Part shown: positions 1 to 10,022 of the stretch, piece by piece | Layout: the number at the start of each line of letters is the position of its first letter | How positions within the stretch are numbered: position 1 is the first letter of the stretch | Source of the DNA: Archaeoglobaceae archaeon | Lineage (GTDB): Archaea > Halobacteriota > Archaeoglobi > Archaeoglobales > Archaeoglobaceae | DNA: 64,000 nucleotides | Assembly: GCA_038734275.1 (NCBI GenBank) | Contig: JAVYOO010000010.1 | Coordinates: forward strand, 1 to 64,000 | Direction: 5' to 3' | Position numbers and translations under genes: made by a program | The notes under the pieces: model-generated | Databases searched by the model: none | Told to the model about the DNA's origin: nothing | Seen by the model: only the letters and a program-made list of their open reading frames with translations

Positions 1-202
1 CCAGTTTGCAATCAGGTCTTTCCACAAGATCGGCAGGAGTGAGTCCATGCTTTTCAAGAAAACCACGATACTTTGCCATCGCAATCTTTCGAGCGATCTT
101 GATCTTCTCCTTGGGATGAATGTTCCTGTTCCTGAGCTGAGCCATCGCTTTGTTGTATTCTTCTCTGAAAAGTTCCTCGGCTTTCTCCTTTATCGTTCTC
201 AT
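1..202 (-). CDS. hypothetical protein, N-terminal part only
   Basis: An open frame starts at ATG 202 and runs off the left edge (67 codons seen). The visible N-terminus begins MRTIKEKAEELFREEY and is rich in Lys, Arg and Glu, likely helical. I do not recognise the family. The ATG overlaps the TGA of the upstream helicase gene by 4 nt (ATGA), so the two are probably translationally coupled and belong to the same element operon. Function unknown. Confidence 0.6.
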   Translation of the reverse strand, partial: MRTIKEKAEELFREEYNKAMAQLRNRNIHPKEKIKIARKIAMAKYRGFLEKHGLTPADLVERPDCKL

Positions 203-1743
203 TTTTGACCACCTATAAACGGAGTAAAATCCACAAGTTGCACAATCCCCAAAGCTTCCCTCGCTCTTGTCGCTCCGACGTAGAAAACCCTCAATTCGTC
301 TTCATAGCCCTCTCTTTCCCTGATATTCCATTCGATCGACTTCGTTATCGCATCAACGAGAAGGGCAACATCGGCTTCCCTTCCCTTGCTTGCGTGGATC
401 GTATCAACGTATAGATTCACCTTTGCCGGATCTATGGGTTTATTTGCAAACTTTATTGCCTCAAAGATCATGGGATCAACCTTATTTTCATCGAGGACGA
501 ACGGGATCTTGTCCGCTATCTGGTAGAACTGAATCGGGATGTTTCCCTTTTCCGCGGACTGTATCAGAATTTCCTTCTCTTTATCGGTGAAGAACGGTTT
601 CATGTGTTCGAAAATCCACGTGAGTTCCACGGAAGTTAAAGGAAGTTTGTTTCTCGTCTTCGCAACAGCATTCCACGCAGTTAATAGCTCCCTCTCCCAA
701 ATTGATTGACTTTTCAGACTTTTGAATGGAAACCTTGCCCTGATAAGCGAGGATTCAGCAACCTTTACCATCTGATTCGTTCTAAACAGCAAGAAGACAG
801 TCTTCTGTGGATACAGCATTGCAAGATTCTTCGCCATGTTTGCAACTCCTTCGATATCATACGCTCCGGAAAAGAACTTTACAGATCCACCTTCCTTTGC
901 CGGCTGAATGTCTTTTTCCTTTCTCTCCAAAACAAGCCCTATTATTTGATTGGCGAATTCAAAGATCTTGCTCGGAACTCTGTGGGATTTCGGTAAAACC
1001 ACGTCTTCATCTGCCTTTAGGTTAAGAAAGTATCTCGATTTTGCCCCTTTCCATCCGTGGATTGCCTGATCATCATCTCCAGCGACAAAGGCATCTTTGC
1101 TTGCATCGATGAATCTCTCGATGATGAGATACTCGAGCAAGCTGAGATCTTGAGCTTCATCCACGAGGACGTAATCTGTTGGTGGGAAAAGCTCCCTTTC
1201 ATAAGCCTCGATCAGAATGTCGTTGAAGTCTATTATTCCGTTATGCTCTTTGAAAGCAATCCATTTCTTGATTATATCACCACAGAGGAGGGATTCCTTG
1301 TAAACTAACTCCACGCAAGCCATTATATCCTTCTTCACAGGATACCACGTTCCGATCGCTTTTGAGTGTAGGGAGAAAGCCTGATTTCCGAGTAATTCCG
1401 AATTCCCAACGGCAAAAGGATCGAACGGAATTTTGAAGTCTTTGCAAAACTTTATCTGCCATGAAATAACAAAATTCGGTTTTTCAAAAGTTTTCTTAGC
1501 CCTTTGCTTGAATCCATTTCCCTCGGTCATCGCAAGAGAAAGACAGACACCATGAAGAGTGTTGAACCACTTAAGTTTGTTCTTTGAAACCTGAAGCCTT
1601 TGCCTGACCTCTTCAATCGCAGAAGTTGACCAAGTGATGAAGGCGATGTTTTCCACAGGAGTTGACTTCGAAAGATTCTCGATTTCCCTCAGCAAATAAG
1701 ACGTTTTCCCGGTTCCTGGTCCGCCAAAGATCCTTGTGATCAT
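199..1743 (-). CDS. superfamily I (UvrD/Rep-like) DNA helicase
   Basis: ATP-dependent 3'-5' DNA helicase of the UvrD/Rep/PcrA class, probably used to replicate or repair the integrated element. Motifs in order: Walker A GGPGTGKTS near the N-terminus, Walker B VLVDEAQD in the middle, GDDDQAIHGWKGA (motif III), DTIHASKGREAD (motif V) and VFYVGATRAREAL (motif VI). About 514 aa is short for UvrD (about 700), so the accessory 1B/2B domains are reduced. I chose ATG 1743 because the P-loop begins directly after it; a longer frame to 1773 would overlap the upstream gene's end. The upstream gene stops 5 nt before the start, and the next gene overlaps the stop. Confidence 0.85.
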   Translation of the reverse strand: MITRIFGGPGTGKTSYLLREIENLSKSTPVENIAFITWSTSAIEEVRQRLQVSKNKLKWFNTLHGVCLSLAMTEGNGFKQRAKKTFEKPNFVISWQIKFCKDFKIPFDPFAVGNSELLGNQAFSLHSKAIGTWYPVKKDIMACVELVYKESLLCGDIIKKWIAFKEHNGIIDFNDILIEAYERELFPPTDYVLVDEAQDLSLLEYLIIERFIDASKDAFVAGDDDQAIHGWKGAKSRYFLNLKADEDVVLPKSHRVPSKIFEFANQIIGLVLERKEKDIQPAKEGGSVKFFSGAYDIEGVANMAKNLAMLYPQKTVFLLFRTNQMVKVAESSLIRARFPFKSLKSQSIWERELLTAWNAVAKTRNKLPLTSVELTWIFEHMKPFFTDKEKEILIQSAEKGNIPIQFYQIADKIPFVLDENKVDPMIFEAIKFANKPIDPAKVNLYVDTIHASKGREADVALLVDAITKSIEWNIREREGYEDELRVFYVGATRAREALGIVQLVDFTPFIGGQK

Positions 1744-1748
1744 GTTTC

Positions 1749-2897
1749 TCACTCGACGTTGATCCTGTCCCAATCGATTTCAATGCTCTGTTTTTCTTCC
1801 TCAGATTTGGATTCCACAGAATCTGGCTCGGCAATTTCCTTCTTCTGAATGACCGGTTCCCAATCGAAGTTAAGAAGAATTTTTGCGAGCTTCTTGATTG
1901 CTTTAATATCAAAAATCCAGAAGCGATGAATTCGTGAATTTCCAGATGGATCTGCAACCCTCCTTGAATCCACACCGAGAAGAATATCTTTTAACGCAAC
2001 TCTCAGCTTTCTAAAGCTATAATTGATTCCAACTTGATCGAGAACCCTTCTCAGCAAATTGTTGTTTATCAGAAGCTGGTTTCCGTCCATGAATGCTGAG
2101 AAGTAAACCGAGACCTGTCCAGACTGGGCATCTTCAAAGGAGTATAGCGGTAAATCTACGATCGACTCGATAACTCCACGGAGAATATCGAACTCAGGAG
2201 TAAGGGGTTCCCTTATTCTTTCAACTCTCTTAACCCATCCTTCATAGATCTTATAGCAGTGGGTAGGAGTGAGCTCCTTAGGTGGGAAATCATAGAGATC
2301 GATGTATAGAGAACCAAAGAATTCCACATTGATCTTATATACCTCATTCTCTCTGTCATAAAAGAACAAATCTGATTTATTTACTTCGATCAATCTCCCT
2401 TTTACATTCAGAAGCAGTTTTCCGACAGATGATAATTCCACAACAGATCTGGTGTCGTTCAGTATCCGCATTGCCGGGTCGATATTGAATGGACAGCTTG
2501 GATCACAGAGTCCAAGAGCCTGGGCAAAATCACAAGCCGAAAAATTAGTTTTTTCAGCCCAGGAGAGGATCTCAAGAACCGCATTGGACGGAATCTCCTT
2601 TATCTTTGGAAATTCCAGAGATGCCGAGTTCGGATCCTTTCCAGCTTGTTTTGCGTGTAAAATCCACAAACGCAAACTCATGGTGGGTTCTAATTCCACA
2701 GAATTCCTTATACATGCTCTATTTTCAAAATGTTCAAGATGTTCAAGGTGTTCAAGATGTTTAACTTGTTCAAGATGTTCAACATGTTCAAGGTCTTTGT
2801 GGGGTTTGTGAGTTCCAGAACAATCTTGAACAGTTGAACAAGTTGAACATGTTGAACATGTTATACATTTTGCGAGATCAGGATTTGTGGACTTCAA
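1749..2897 (-). CDS. element protein with Cys-Ser-Thr and Leu-Glu-His repeats
   Basis: A 382-aa protein, not recognised. The likely start is TTG 2897 since no ATG or GTG lies between it and the upstream in-frame stop. Residues about 15-60 read as CSTCSTCST followed by repeats of LEH/VEH, because this stretch is encoded by the 9-bp DNA repeats of 2724-2868. The rest (from about residue 70) looks like an ordinary globular protein with a Lys/Glu-rich tail. The DNA repeats may have a DNA function, with the protein tolerating them. An internal ATG near 2681 (MSLRLWILHAK) is an alternative start that would place the repeats upstream of the gene. It lies between the primase and helicase genes, so a replication role is inferred only from position. 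Confidence 0.6.
   Translation of the reverse strand: MKSTNPDLAKCITCSTCSTCSTVQDCSGTHKPHKDLEHVEHLEQVKHLEHLEHLEHFENRACIRNSVELEPTMSLRLWILHAKQAGKDPNSASLEFPKIKEIPSNAVLEILSWAEKTNFSACDFAQALGLCDPSCPFNIDPAMRILNDTRSVVELSSVGKLLLNVKGRLIEVNKSDLFFYDRENEVYKINVEFFGSLYIDLYDFPPKELTPTHCYKIYEGWVKRVERIREPLTPEFDILRGVIESIVDLPLYSFEDAQSGQVSVYFSAFMDGNQLLINNNLLRRVLDQVGINYSFRKLRVALKDILLGVDSRRVADPSGNSRIHRFWIFDIKAIKKLAKILLNFDWEPVIQKKEIAEPDSVESKSEEEKQSIEIDWDRINVE
2724..2868. repeat. two inverted arrays of a 9-bp iteron-like repeat (candidate origin)
   Basis: Positions 2724-2795 hold eight tandem 9-bp units of the type TTCAAGATG. Positions 2825-2868 hold four to five units of the type GTTGAACAT, the same core (TGTTCAA/TTGAACA) in the opposite orientation. 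About 29 bp separate the arrays. Tandem short repeats beside replication genes are typical of iteron origins. The strand preference of GTGGA also flips across this spot. The two arrays could also pair as a large hairpin. Role as origin is inferred. Confidence 0.65.
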
Positions 2898-2929
2898 TTT
2901 CTCGATAACAGCTTTTATCTCCGTGGATT

Positions 2930-3832
2930 TTAGTAAAGAACCTTTCTCCTCTGGTTTTTATCTCTTAATCTTCTTGCCAATTCCTCGCAAGTGACAATCC
3001 CGAGAAGCATTCCCGCAAGTGATAGCCATCTACCACCAACGTTGTGGCGGAAGCAATACCATGAGGAGCCATCCTCTGAGATTGCAAAGTTTCTTCCAGT
3101 GTGCTCACTCCCATGTGTGGGATGCTCTCCTTGGAGACTATTATCTCCCACTCCTTTGTGGAGTTTTCCTAAAGCCTCGGGTTTAAGAGCCTTCAAAACT
3201 TCAATGCATGAGATCTCCGAGCTTTCCCCGCTTCTTTCTGCCGTTTCAACAAGTGTTTTATTTACTCCCAAAAGCTCCGCATAGAAACGATTGAGAAACT
3301 CATCGTTCTGCCTTATCTCCTTTGGTGTGGACTCAATCCACCAGCCTGTGATAGTCAGAAACCTCTTTTCCTTGTAAATCTCCACTTTAAGATCATCGTT
3401 CCTGATGTTCCGTGGAATCGAGCCTTTAAGCCAAATTCTAACTCCCTTTCCAGAAGGAGTTATCTCTGCATAGCTATTTGCCTCTTGTAGTATTCTTTCA
3501 ACCCATGGATTCAGCTTTCCATCCTCGATGCAGTCGTCAATATCTATCGCCACAAGGTTAAGCTCTGGAGCGAGAACGAAGCCAATTCCGATGTTTAGCT
3601 TCCTTGCATAGCCCAACGCTTCGAGAAAGCTCACGTGAGTTTTTGGATCGGTATAACTGCATCCTATCGGTCTCCCTTCCTGCGTGGTTTTCAGCTCTCC
3701 ATTGCTTAGCCATGGAGCGACTGGGGTCTTATCGAGCTTTCCGTTTGCCATGTAAGGAGCCCAGCAGATCCAGTGTGGGATTTTCTTTAGCTCCTCGGGA
3801 ATGTTCTCCTCTCTGATCTCCGTGGGATTCAT
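2930..3832 (-). CDS. PrimPol (archaeo-eukaryotic primase superfamily) replication protein
   Basis: Primase-polymerase of the kind found in archaeal plasmids and viruses, expected to make primers and extend them on the element. The N-terminal pattern (IPHWICWAPYMANGKLDKTP) is typical of this family. The metal-binding DxD is in VAIDIDDC (about residue 95), followed by ITPSGKGVRIWLKG and RFLTITGWW, which match the nucleotide-binding strands of AEP primases. The C-terminal part (about 235-280) has His and Cys in GEHPTHGSEH and WYCFRHNVGG, resembling a zinc-binding primase module. At 300 aa it lacks a fused SF3 helicase; the separate SF1 helicase of this operon may serve. ATG 3832 overlaps the upstream gene by 4 nt. 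Confidence 0.75.
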   Translation of the reverse strand: MNPTEIREENIPEELKKIPHWICWAPYMANGKLDKTPVAPWLSNGELKTTQEGRPIGCSYTDPKTHVSFLEALGYARKLNIGIGFVLAPELNLVAIDIDDCIEDGKLNPWVERILQEANSYAEITPSGKGVRIWLKGSIPRNIRNDDLKVEIYKEKRFLTITGWWIESTPKEIRQNDEFLNRFYAELLGVNKTLVETAERSGESSEISCIEVLKALKPEALGKLHKGVGDNSLQGEHPTHGSEHTGRNFAISEDGSSWYCFRHNVGGRWLSLAGMLLGIVTCEELARRLRDKNQRRKVLY

Positions 3833-4197
3833 GGCTTATCACCTTCGATCTTCACTGGATCTAATTCAATCGCCAAAATTTTCCGTGTATAATCGCTCTC
3901 CCAAGACTCAAGTCTCAATTTTATGCATCTTTTTTCTTTCTTTCTCCACACCGCAAGGCAGTCGCCATAATCACGTATCCCGCAGAGAAGTTTCGGATCA
4001 TCTAAACAGTCTTCGCAATCTTCAGGATCTTGATCGCTACAGAATTTAACTTTGAAATGCTCACATGACGAATTTGTCTTATTGCAAAGCTTACATGTAA
4101 ACTTAATCTCATCGAAGTCTATTATGAAGTCCTCGAATTCGTGGACTTCACTTTTTTGGACGTCCCTTCTTGGAAGAGGAGCATCTTCTTCCATCAT
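3829..4197 (-). CDS. small Cys-rich, putative zinc-binding protein
   Basis: A 122-aa protein with an acidic N-terminus and a cluster of cysteines (CKLCNKTNSSCEHFKVKFC, then CEDCLDD and LLCGI) that could bind one or two zinc ions. Family not recognised. The last codons overlap the primase start (ATGA), and its own start overlaps the stop of the AbrB-like gene upstream by 4 nt, so it belongs to the leftward element operon. The composition suggests a regulatory or replication accessory factor, without direct proof. Confidence 0.6.
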   Translation of the reverse strand: MMEEDAPLPRRDVQKSEVHEFEDFIIDFDEIKFTCKLCNKTNSSCEHFKVKFCSDQDPEDCEDCLDDPKLLCGIRDYGDCLAVWRKKEKRCIKLRLESWESDYTRKILAIELDPVKIEGDKP

Positions 4198-4469
4198 TTT
4201 CGGATCACCTCTTGAGAAGGAGCGTTATCGGGCTCATCCTCCTCCTCTTCAATCTCTACAGGATCGAGAACGATCTTGCCACTTTCAACATAGACCGCAA
4301 AGCGATGGCTGTGGAATAACTTCCTGATAAAGGATGGAACGTAGATCTTCCCACGCTTATCGAATTTGTAGAGTCTCAGCTCAGAATCGAAAGCTTTTTC
4401 AGCTCTTCGGTCGTAGGTTTTACCAGAAATCGAGCGTCTTTTGGTTTGTAGCGTCGTGGTGGACGTCAT
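4194..4469 (-). CDS. AbrB/SpoVT-like DNA-binding protein
   Basis: A 91-aa protein. The middle part (YKFDKRGKIYVPSFIRKLF, then FAVYVESGKIVLDP) has the swapped-hairpin pattern of AbrB-family transition regulators. The C-terminus is acidic (EEEEDEPDN). It probably binds element promoters as a dimer. It starts 3 nt after the stop of a second AbrB-like gene, so the pair is co-transcribed. Target unknown; the palindrome at 4713-4728 upstream of the operon is the natural candidate. Confidence 0.6.
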   Translation of the reverse strand: MTSTTTLQTKRRSISGKTYDRRAEKAFDSELRLYKFDKRGKIYVPSFIRKLFHSHRFAVYVESGKIVLDPVEIEEEEDEPDNAPSQEVIRK

Positions 4470-4471
4470 TT

Positions 4472-4699
4472 TTAATTCACCTCTTGAGAAACGTTATCGG
4501 ATTCGGCTCTCGTGAGTGTGGAATCCTCGTTATAAGGCTCGATAACGAGTTTTCCATCGATAAGAGTTATTTTGACGTATTCTCCAAGCTGATCGGCTAT
4601 TTCTGGTGGGATTCTGACGACTTTTTCACTGTTGTAAATCCCTTTTGACTTCCTTACCTTATACACCCAGATCGGATTTATCATATTTCTCCACCACAT
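4472..4699 (-). CDS. AbrB-like DNA-binding protein, first gene of leftward operon
   Basis: A 75-aa protein with an AbrB-type core (EKVVRIPPEIADQLGEYVKI followed by GKLVIEP). ATG 4699 lies about 20-25 nt from a TATA element that forms part of the palindrome 4713-4728, so the transcript may be leaderless and the gene could be autoregulated. An ATG six codons in (MINPIWVYK) is an alternative start. It heads the operon that runs through the second AbrB-like protein, Cys-rich protein, primase and helicase. Confidence 0.65.
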   Translation of the reverse strand: MWWRNMINPIWVYKVRKSKGIYNSEKVVRIPPEIADQLGEYVKITLIDGKLVIEPYNEDSTLTRAESDNVSQEVN

Positions 4700-4712
4700 C
4701 TTAACACTTAAT

Positions 4713-4728
4713 TTAACTTATAAGTTAA
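4713..4728. promoter_or_regulatory. 16-bp palindromic operator in the divergent promoter
   Basis: TTAACTTATAAGTTAA is a perfect palindrome containing TATA-like DNA, placed where the TATA box of the leftward operon should be (start codon 4699). It lies just upstream of the rightward TATA box at 4742-4749. A dimeric regulator bound here would block the leftward promoter. The AbrB-like proteins or the winged-helix protein are candidate ligands. Confidence 0.6.
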
Positions 4729-4741
4729 GTTGTCCGATGGG

Positions 4742-4749
4742 TTTATATA
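4742..4749 (+). promoter_or_regulatory. TATA box for the rightward element operon
   Basis: tttatata lies about 25 nt before ATG 4770, the distance expected from an archaeal TATA box to the transcription start. The mRNA would therefore be leaderless. The box overlaps an upstream in-frame ATG (4737), which rules that ATG out as the start. Confidence 0.6.
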
Positions 4750-4769
4750 CTTTTCGGCTAATTCCTTTT

Positions 4770-5162
4770 ATGAAAGTGTGGGTGACTAAAGGCAAGGTTC
4801 TACATACAATCAAAACAGGAAATCATGCTTTTACCGAAATAGAAGAAAAAAGTGGTCTCGGATCTCCGACCGTGAGCAAATATCTTCGGGAATTGGAGCG
4901 AGAAGGATTAATTATTGTCGAATTAGATAGATTTACCCGTAAACCTCGCTACAAATTAAACGAATCCCGGATAGATGAGATCAACAAACTGATCAACGCA
5001 TATCTCGAAAGCGAAGCAAAAGAGTTCAAAGAAAAAATAGAGATTGCGAAGACAGTCATTCCCGAGAAAGAAAAGATAAGACTCGCTTCTTACTTCATAA
5101 CCGTGGATGAGGAAAAGAGGAAGCGGATCGAGAAGATGCTTGAAGAAATTCTGAAGGAATGA
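4770..5162 (+). CDS. winged-helix transcription regulator
   Basis: A 130-aa protein. Residues about 5-65 form a winged helix of the ArsR/MarR-like kind: VLHTIKTGNHAFTEIEEKSG, recognition helix SPTVSKYLRELEREGLI, then a wing ending in RKPRYKL. The C-terminal half is a charged helical region, probably for dimerisation. ATG 4770 was chosen because the TATA box sits 25 nt before it. The stop overlaps the next gene by 4 nt. It is likely to control the divergent element operons through the palindrome just upstream. Confidence 0.7.
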   Translation: MKVWVTKGKVLHTIKTGNHAFTEIEEKSGLGSPTVSKYLRELEREGLIIVELDRFTRKPRYKLNESRIDEINKLINAYLESEAKEFKEKIEIAKTVIPEKEKIRLASYFITVDEEKRKRIEKMLEEILKE

Positions 5163-6079
5163 GGATTGAAAAATCTCCCGACTTTTCGAAAAAAGAGGAT
5201 GAAGTTCTTGTTCTCGATAATAGAGAGAGAAAACAGCATATAATTACTGTTGTCTTCGACGACTTACAATCACATGTGGATTTTGAGAATAAGCGGATAG
5301 TGATAAACAAAAACCTTCCGGACAATCAAAAGAAGTTTGTTCTCCAGCATGAAGTCGAACATCTAAATAAAAAATTTGTCTCGCCTTGGTGGGTTCTCTC
5401 TATCCCGGGCTTTAAATTAGCGGAGTATTTCAGCATGGAAGCAAAAACGAGAATTGAAAAAGAAGTTTTGGATAAGCTTTTATCTAATCCCGATCCGAAG
5501 CTACGTCTTCTCGGCATAACTGTGGATGCTTTTCTACCCCAAACTCTCGATAACTATATCGAAGATTTTTTCATTAACAAACATCTCATTAAGAACCACC
5601 GTATTAATAAGTCTTCTCTTGAAGAGTTGTATGGATTAGGAACTCTTTCGAGCGTGAAGTATTTCAGAAGGATTTCTGATGCATATTCGCAATATTTCGG
5701 AGTTAATGTTAATCGAATTGAAGAGCCTTTGAAAGTTCAAAAGAATCTTTTCTCCAATTCTCATAATGTCGGTTATCTCGTAAACTCTTTAGCAGATTGC
5801 GGTTACTGTCTCACCGAAAAAATGAAATTAATTGATTTTTACGAGTTGACAAAGAAGGGGTTAAAAAGAGTTGTCGATTCTGTGGATTCTGAAGACATCT
5901 TCAGCGAAGTTTTGCTTCATAAGGTTAAAACAGAATTAGAACGCCTTAATCAGATTCAAACCATTTTAGAGATTTTGAAATCCAACAAAAACCCGTTTTT
6001 CAAGAATAGATCACTGAAATTTTTATTCTCGGTTTACCAATCTGCTCTTTCTCGTCCAGAATTATCGAAAATACTTTGA
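5159..6079 (+). CDS. putative zinc metalloprotease-like protein (HEVEH motif)
   Basis: A 306-aa protein with HEVEH at residues 64-68 (context VLQHEVEHLNKKF), the HExxH zinc signature of gluzincin/ImmA-like peptidases. A third zinc ligand may be a Glu in the helix around residues 85-100 (KLAEYFSMEAKTRIEKEV). The remaining 200 residues are not recognised and show no membrane segment. It is coupled by a 4-nt overlap to the winged-helix gene. A regulator plus a metalloprotease is the layout of the ImmR/ImmA switch of mobile elements, in which the protease destroys the repressor. Here that is only an analogy. Confidence 0.55.
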   Translation: MRIEKSPDFSKKEDEVLVLDNRERKQHIITVVFDDLQSHVDFENKRIVINKNLPDNQKKFVLQHEVEHLNKKFVSPWWVLSIPGFKLAEYFSMEAKTRIEKEVLDKLLSNPDPKLRLLGITVDAFLPQTLDNYIEDFFINKHLIKNHRINKSSLEELYGLGTLSSVKYFRRISDAYSQYFGVNVNRIEEPLKVQKNLFSNSHNVGYLVNSLADCGYCLTEKMKLIDFYELTKKGLKRVVDSVDSEDIFSEVLLHKVKTELERLNQIQTILEILKSNKNPFFKNRSLKFLFSVYQSALSRPELSKIL

Positions 6080-6540
6080 TAAAAAAAGACGAATACTTAA
6101 ATGTGGTTGCTCGGGTTTCCACCAAATATCGATTTTTTAGAAAAGCTTTTGTCTTGGTTGCCAACTATGACTTTATGGAACTTATGGGAAAATTCGTTAT
6201 TCGAAAAAAGAAAGCCAAAGAGGGCTTCGAATACCCTTACTTGCGGTTGCCCGTGGATTTTTCCGAGCTTATTGGTTGCGAAGCGGAGATCTACCGTGAT
6301 AAAGAGTGGTTTTTCATACACATAGTTGGCAACTCGGTTGGCAACTCATATGGGATATCCAGCGAAAATAAAACTCCACAGCCTCCAAAACGAGAATCAA
6401 GCCATTCAAAAAATCGAGAATTTAACGATAGCCTCTTAAATTGCTCAAATTCCCGCAAGGAATGGGCTCGGCCGGATTCGAACCGGCGATCTCCGCCGTG
6501 TAAGGGCGGTGTCATAACCCCTAGACCACGAGCCCTTTAG
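6076..6540 (+). CDS. element protein whose frame runs into the tRNA gene
   Basis: The frame opens at TTG 6076, overlapping the previous stop by 4 nt, and continues to 6540. The first 95 residues look real; YPYLRLPVDFSELIGCEAEI resembles an AbrB-type hairpin. The last 25 residues are the antisense of tRNA-Val and are a by-product of integration. In the free element the gene probably had a different 3' end, so what is seen may be a truncated or altered protein. Function unknown. Confidence 0.5.
   Translation: MIKKDEYLNVVARVSTKYRFFRKAFVLVANYDFMELMGKFVIRKKKAKEGFEYPYLRLPVDFSELIGCEAEIYRDKEWFFIHIVGNSVGNSYGISSENKTPQPPKRESSHSKNREFNDSLLNCSNSRKEWARPDSNRRSPPCKGGVITPRPRAL
6463..6535 (-). tRNA. tRNA-Val (anticodon UAC)
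   Basis: Reading the minus strand, a 7-bp acceptor stem GGGCTCG/CGAGCCC, D arm, anticodon stem CCGCC/GGCGG with loop CTTACAC (anticodon TAC), T arm GCCGG-TTCGAAT-CCGGC and discriminator A give a complete 73-nt cloverleaf without encoded CCA. No intron. Its 3' end points toward the integrated element, so it is the likely attachment site, with the 3' part of the gene supplied by the element on integration. Confidence 0.95.
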
Positions 6541-8958: not shown

Positions 8959-10022
8959 AAGCGGGCTTGGCTTTGGAAGATGGAACTTATCTCGAAGGTA
9001 AGGCTTTTGGAGCGGAAAAAATCGGCATAGGGGAGCTTGTTTTCTGCACATCGATGACTGGTTATGTTGAGGCTTTGACGGATCCAAGCTACAAAGGACA
9101 AATTCTAATGATGACCTATCCGCTTATTGGCAACTACGGGGTATGCAAAGAGGACTTTGAGAGCGACGGCGTTAAAGTTGAGGGCTTCGTGGTCCGTGAG
9201 CTCTGCAAGAAGCCAAGCAACTGGCGGAGCGAGATGAGTGTTGATGAACTGCTAAAGCAATACGATGTCGTGGGCATTGAAGGTGTTGACACCAGAATGC
9301 TTACGAAGAAGATCCGAATTTACGGCTCAATGAAGGCTGCAATCGGCGTAGGGGTTGAAAAGGAAAAGCTGATCAAGATCGCAAGGGAACAGCCTTTCAT
9401 AGGCGATATTGATCTTGTCGATAAAGTCTGCGTTAGGGAGCCAAAAAGGATTGAAGCCAAAGGAAAATACGAAGTTGTGCTCATCGACTGCGGTGTAAAG
9501 ATGAGCATAGTTAGACAGCTTCTGAAGCGTGGAATTAATCTCACACTTGTGCCTTACAACTTTCCAGCTGAGAAGATCATCGAAATGAACCCTGATGGTG
9601 TCTTCATATCTAATGGCCCTGGCGATCCTGCGAGGGTTAAGGAAACAATAGAGACGATCAGGAAGCTCGTTGGCAAGTTTCCAATGGCTGGAATTTGCCT
9701 TGGACACCAGTTGATGGCTTTAGCTTTTAAAGCCAAGACCTTTAAGCTTAAATTTGGACACCACGGGAGCAATCAGCCCACAAAAGATCTTGAGACAGGC
9801 AGAGTTTTCATTTCAAGCCAGAATCACAACTTCTCGGTTGACGAAAAAACCCTGCCGAAGGGTTTCGAAGTGACGCAGATTAATCTTAACGACAGAACTG
9901 TCGAAGGACTCAAGCACAATGATCTGCCCATAATAACCGTGCAATATCACCCAGAAGCTGGTCCTGGGCCACATGACACGTATTTCTTCTTCGATCGATT
10001 TCTTGAGCTTTTGAGGGGTTGA
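8955..10022 (+). CDS. carA: carbamoyl-phosphate synthase small (glutaminase) subunit
   Basis: Hydrolyses glutamine and passes ammonia to CarB. The 355-aa protein has the CarA N-terminal domain ([15 protein letters not shown]) and a C-terminal class I glutamine amidotransferase: oxyanion [10 protein letters not shown], nucleophile Cys in GICLGHQ, and catalytic His-Glu in [15 protein letters not shown] 8955 overlaps the purC stop by 4 nt. carB starts 1 nt after the stop. It acts in the cytoplasm, feeding pyrimidine and arginine synthesis. Confidence 0.95.

Follow-up and report, generated by a model that had tools for sequence, protein, structure and literature searches.

The integrated element E1 and its replication module

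The window, i.e. the whole stretch of 64,000 nucleotides analysed here, starts at a contig end, within an integrated element that we named E1. The following features were identified in this part of the window:

1..6463: left part of the integrated element E1, from the contig end; 50 YGTGG/CCACR sites
199..1773, minus strand: UvrD/Rep-family helicase
1749..2897, minus strand: ORF2, a conserved replication-module protein that matches no known family; 9-bp repeats in the 5' end of the gene
2724..2791, plus strand: first arm of the tandem 9-bp repeats (TGTTCAAGA-like), which lie in the ORF2 frame and translate as LEH...
2834..2872, plus strand: 9-bp repeats, inverted arm; iteron-like, 87% complementary to 2753-2791
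2930..3832, minus strand: PrimPol-type primase, 300 aa, with an NrS-1-like AEP domain and a CHC2-like zinc-ribbon stretch
4194..4469, minus strand: small protein adjoining the primase gene; homologues in E2, L125 and L126
4472..4699, minus strand: MazE/AbrB-type DNA-binding protein
4737..5162, plus strand: winged-helix regulator
5159..6079, plus strand: M78/IrrE-like metallopeptidase (weak match)
6076..6540, plus strand: N-terminal part of the integrase, whose gene is split by integration; overlaps tRNA-Val
6463..6535, minus strand: tRNA-Val (TAC), attachment site

The remainder of E1 lies on another contig (G000:C7:88217-93939), with the C-terminal part of the integrase and a second copy of the attachment site. 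Positions 6345-6506 of the window are duplicated there as 162 identical bp (G000:C7:88217-88378), and the C-terminal integrase part is carried by the copy at G000:C7:88065-89240. With a tRNA target and a split integrase gene, E1 shows an SSV-type integration, like the integrated archaeal plasmids with a split integrase of this type. It differs from these plasmids by its replication module (primase-ORF2-UvrD), and no named plasmid family was matched here. A second element, E2 (L013), is present in the same genome at a tRNA-Ala gene (contig C8, about 80.3-90.5 kb). The primases of E1 and E2 share 98% identity, the UvrD proteins 42% and the ORF2 proteins 30%. Besides E1 and E2, ORF2 was found in five related elements.

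A pentamer enriched beyond coding constraints

The sequence-only reading of this DNA had reported about 38 occurrences of GTGGA or its complement TCCAC in positions 1-6463, against about a dozen in similar lengths of neighbouring DNA. We counted 39 (17 GTGGA and 22 TCCAC), and 11-17 in neighbouring 6.4-kb blocks. The excess over chance was confirmed (3.9-fold relative to base composition, the highest among 512 pentamers) and persists after codon correction (38 observed vs. 20 expected, z = 5.2). The word is thus element-specific and not a codon artefact, but it is not the motif proper: TGTGG is stronger, GTGGT and CGTGG are enriched too, and the core is YGTGG (Y = C or T), which is enriched on both strands.

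We ranked the 512 degenerate pentamer classes against two null models. The first one shuffles synonymous codons and keeps the protein and the codon usage. The second one, stricter, also keeps the dinucleotides at codon junctions; its shuffle was pooled over genes, as a gene-by-gene strict shuffle mixed too little (z of 3-5 in E1, E2 and the related element L126). YGTGG ranks first of the 512 classes in E1, E2 and L126 under both models. With the synonymous-codon shuffle, 69 sites were observed vs. 28 expected in E1, 64 vs. 23 in E2 and 43 vs. 21 in L126, the excess in E1 and E2 being 2.0- to 2.9-fold (z = 8-10). Under the strict model, the excess in these three elements is still about 1.7- to 2.0-fold (z = 5-9). 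In comparison, YGTGG reaches only 1.08-fold in host genes, and GTGG, the top 4-mer in E1 and E2 under the synonymous shuffle, 0.99-fold. When the genome was scanned in 522 segments of 6.4 kb, the five highest for YGTGG were all in or overlapping E1 or E2. Codon usage and codon-junction dinucleotides are therefore rejected as the cause, since both shuffles leave the enrichment standing, and so is a host-wide bias, since neither the host genes nor the genome scan displays a comparable enrichment. The enrichment of YGTGG is real and element-specific, and exceeds what amino acids, codon usage and junction dinucleotides would give.

The base preceding GTGG (position -1) is preferentially a pyrimidine (T 2.3-fold, C 2.2-fold; A and G 1.2-fold), and the base following it is preferentially A or T. 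Within the window part of E1, there is about one YGTGG per 250-270 nt on each strand; the UvrD gene of E1 (199..1773) contains 14 sites vs. 6.2 expected. As a separate feature of the genome, host genes strongly avoid GTAC (50 vs. 1245 expected) and CTAG (90 vs. 1341 expected).

Related elements with and without a detected primase

Relatives of E1 were sought by ORF2 and UvrD in 55 genomes of the family, and five were found (L125-L129). L125 encodes a PF09250 primase domain with a weak NrS-1-type helix-bundle match, and L126 a split primase-like pair, weakly matched. L127, L128 and L129 carry ORF2 and UvrD, and no primase match was obtained among their genes examined. YGTGG is enriched in the primase-bearing relatives (2.1- to 2.2-fold in L126, 1.6- to 1.8-fold in L125) and not in the three others (about 1.05-, 0.7- and 1.1-fold, respectively). 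The same genes, with and without a primase, provide built-in controls: YGTGG in the UvrD gene reaches 2.24-, 2.59-, 2.56- and 2.02-fold in the four primase elements vs. 0.93-, 0- and 1.10-fold in the three elements without a detected primase. Two further elements, L175 and L174, were found via the C-terminal stretch of the primase and show YGTGG at 1.86- and 1.5-fold, respectively; L174 encodes a DnaG-type protein that has a CHC2 zinc ribbon. The enrichment thus goes with primase genes inside this element group, which counts about six positive elements that are partly dependent (the primase gene is common to E1 and E2, and L125 has genes in common with L126).

Across four comparisons of UvrD or ORF2, the number of YGTGG sites at homologous positions was 0, 0, 0 and 1. 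Because the sites are almost never at homologous positions, it is their density, and not their position, that is kept. The three unenriched elements also encode a protein of about 367 aa (L127:12250-13350; L128:7196-8299, minus strand; L129:11973-13085) that matches phrog_9660 and is a possible alternative initiator.

YGTGG could instead be bound by a different protein of the element, involved in compaction, partition or copy control, for example the protein encoded by 4194-4469. Homologues of this protein occur in E2, L125 and L126, while the three unenriched elements yielded none; however, none was found in L174 and L175 either, which are both enriched. Moreover, a binding word would not predict the biochemical match to GTG and the pyrimidine where priming would start (see below), and we consider this explanation quite improbable. 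A functionless leftover, in composition or mutation, of a different host or polymerase appears just as unlikely. Although other words in the elements also deviate from expectation, they do so more weakly; a leftover would hardly put a single class first in three elements and favour particular bases at -1 and +1, nor outlast shuffles that preserve junction dinucleotides. In addition, YGTGG lies at 0.85- to 1.18-fold in the hosts of the related elements, and homologous elements in sister hosts are without enrichment. Finally, the Chi word of Escherichia coli ends in GTGG and E1 encodes a UvrD-family helicase, for which YGTGG might form Chi-like recombination sites. A homologous UvrD is present in three elements without enrichment, which disfavours this explanation and makes it highly improbable.

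Orientation of the sites and 9-bp repeats

The sequence-only reading had also proposed that GTGGA changes strand at the 9-bp repeats, as a primer-start site polarised on both sides of an origin. Its counts were close to ours: positions 1-2700 contain 16 TCCAC and 3 GTGGA, as claimed, and positions 2880-6463 contain the 14 GTGGA claimed, with 6 TCCAC instead of 5. At 2800, no other pentamer is as asymmetric as GTGGA (Fisher p = 0.001), although this is the best of 275 tests. The 50 YGTGG sites in 1-6463 are distributed as 4 plus and 19 minus to the left of 2750, and 22 plus and 5 minus to the right (Fisher 1e-5). However, most of this switch arises because the amino acids that can carry YGTGG differ by strand: coding content alone predicts 31.7 of the 50 window sites in the proposed polarity, vs. 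41 observed (p = 0.002, for a split that was set once the data were known). In E2, 44 sites were observed in the proposed polarity vs. 40.5 expected (p = 0.22), and the C7 half of E1 shows a mixed orientation (14 plus, 16 minus). No orientation bias about an origin beyond the coding expectation was therefore replicated in E1 and E2. As the switch in the window is largely coding-driven and is repeated neither by E2 nor by the C7 half of E1, a polarised array is not supported. Start sites polarised about an origin at 2724-2868 would be a stronger version of the explanation that we favour below; they are unlikely, despite the coding-corrected excess in the window. From the initial proposal, a primer start fits our results, while the strong polarity about the repeats is not supported.

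The repeat arms of E1 (2724-2872) are a possible candidate origin. By eye, such an arrangement, with 9-bp repeats in tandem and inverted arms, seems to recur close to the 5' end of ORF2 across elements: in the window at 2724-2872, in L127 at about 9485-9610 and in L128 at about 10.77-10.91 kb (minus strand). E2 has merely a looser inverted pair (about 11.38-11.50 kb of L013), and in L129 none was seen by eye at this place. The repeat units are unrelated in sequence (E1 has TGTTCAAGA-like units, L127 and L128 GGGACANNN-like ones), so that the repeat architecture, and not the unit sequence, seems to be conserved.

The primase and its putative start signal

The window primase (2930..3832) matches a PHROG DNA primase/helicase (E = 6e-36). 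Using phmmer against primases of the PDB, we obtained matches with 7ola (E = 1e-18) and with 6a9w, 6k9a and 7rr3 (about 1e-11), the NrS-1 PrimPol being among these solved relatives. The NrS-1-like AEP domain covers residues ~6-212 and the CHC2-like zinc-ribbon stretch residues ~234-284. The AEP motifs DxD and SGxGxH are aligned with IDID and SGKGVR, an R standing where NrS-1 has an H. The helix-bundle domain PF22763 gave no Pfam match in the window primase; PF09250 gave none in this protein, nor in the genome that carries it (E ≤ 1e-6). A search of viral contigs gave no relatives of the window primase, and a search of plasmids none of the L125 primase.

A pyrimidine at -1 would specify a purine start, and primases usually begin with a purine. 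The NrS-1 PrimPol requires GTG, with GTGA and GTGG as best templates, and its main start lies one base upstream (PMC8718748). The pRN1 primase also requires GTG in its template, as the sequence-only reading had noted, and sets its first nucleotide, ATP on the studied template, opposite the base 5' of GTG (PMC8076596, PMC11009956). The window enzyme has an AEP domain homologous to that of the NrS-1 PrimPol (E = 1e-11), for which GTGG is one of the two best templates. It differs from it by its length (300 aa), without a fused helicase, by its CHC2-like stretch and by a helix-bundle domain that was not detected; furthermore, GTGA is equally good for the NrS-1 PrimPol, yet it is not enriched in E1. 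The likeness to pRN1 ORF904 lies in the GTG of the template and in a start opposite its 5' neighbour, precisely where Y sits. However, ORF904 is a member of PF09250, a family to which the window primase gave no match, and the preferred words of ORF904 are YCGTG and YGTGA.

From these homologues, we infer that the window primase reads YGTGG: the word would probably mark where the element's own primase starts on its template, not necessarily in a polarised arrangement. This enzyme (AEP domain plus template-recognition domain) would read GTGG on single-stranded DNA, and the first nucleotide, a purine, would be laid opposite the pyrimidine just 5' of GTGG. Selection for frequent priming would have produced the enrichment by raising the density of YGTGG element-wide, with positions left unfixed. 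As YGTGG is about twice as frequent as the genes require and matches the start signal of the relatives, the preference of the enzyme seems to be written over the whole element. In addition, GTGC words and YGTGT are depleted in E1 and E2 (0.24- to 0.45-fold), and near-cognate start words are possibly avoided in these elements.

More tentatively, the primase may combine an AEP domain with a zinc ribbon of the DnaG type (CHC2), and the start word may be set by this ribbon rather than by the catalytic fold. This reading, which we find possible but doubtful, comes from L174, enriched in YGTGG, whose DnaG-type protein starts with a ribbon sharing 43% identity (51 residues) with residues 234-284 of the window primase. 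If it is true, template specificity has been exchanged between two unrelated primase superfamilies, in a way readable from genome statistics.

Primase start sites are usually determined at the bench, enzyme by enzyme. Here, the start word appears legible from the element sequence alone and matches the biochemistry of the relatives at the base level. Should assays agree, the specificity of primases from many plasmids and viruses could be predicted with codon-corrected word statistics, and priming would be shown to shape the sequence of a whole mobile element.

Control plasmids, phages and other AEP loci

As a positive control, we analysed the pRN1-family plasmids under the synonymous null model: YGTGN is enriched 1.25- to 1.88-fold in 5 out of 6, while RGTGN lies at 0.81- to 1.15-fold. 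In pNOB8, pING1 and SSV1, Sulfolobales elements taken to be without such a primase, YGTGN lies at 0.89- to 0.99-fold under the same model. NrS-1 shows a small excess of YGTGG (1.24- to 1.35-fold), and NrS-2 and NrS-4, in which the primase is not annotated, 0.88- to 1.11-fold.

YGTGG enrichment is absent in most PF09250 neighbourhoods tested in the phylum. Likewise, no enrichment was found in pIT3 and in another plasmid, from haloarchaea, nor in several phages that carry distant PrimPols. Some of all these loci are depleted. They refute the idea that any AEP implies YGTGG. As most other PF09250 neighbourhoods are unenriched, the association is limited to this primase group and does not concern AEPs generally. 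In the phages Kaya, Halfdan and Paracoccus R3 (L151, L150 and L148), GTGG words are strongly depleted, RGTGG the most (0.06- to 0.24-fold), despite the distant PrimPol relatives that these phages carry. In pRN1, pRN2 and pHEN7 (L145, L153 and L154), the strict null model places YCGTG first among the enriched pentamer classes (z = 4-6), which suggests a role for two pyrimidines ahead of GTG in these plasmids.
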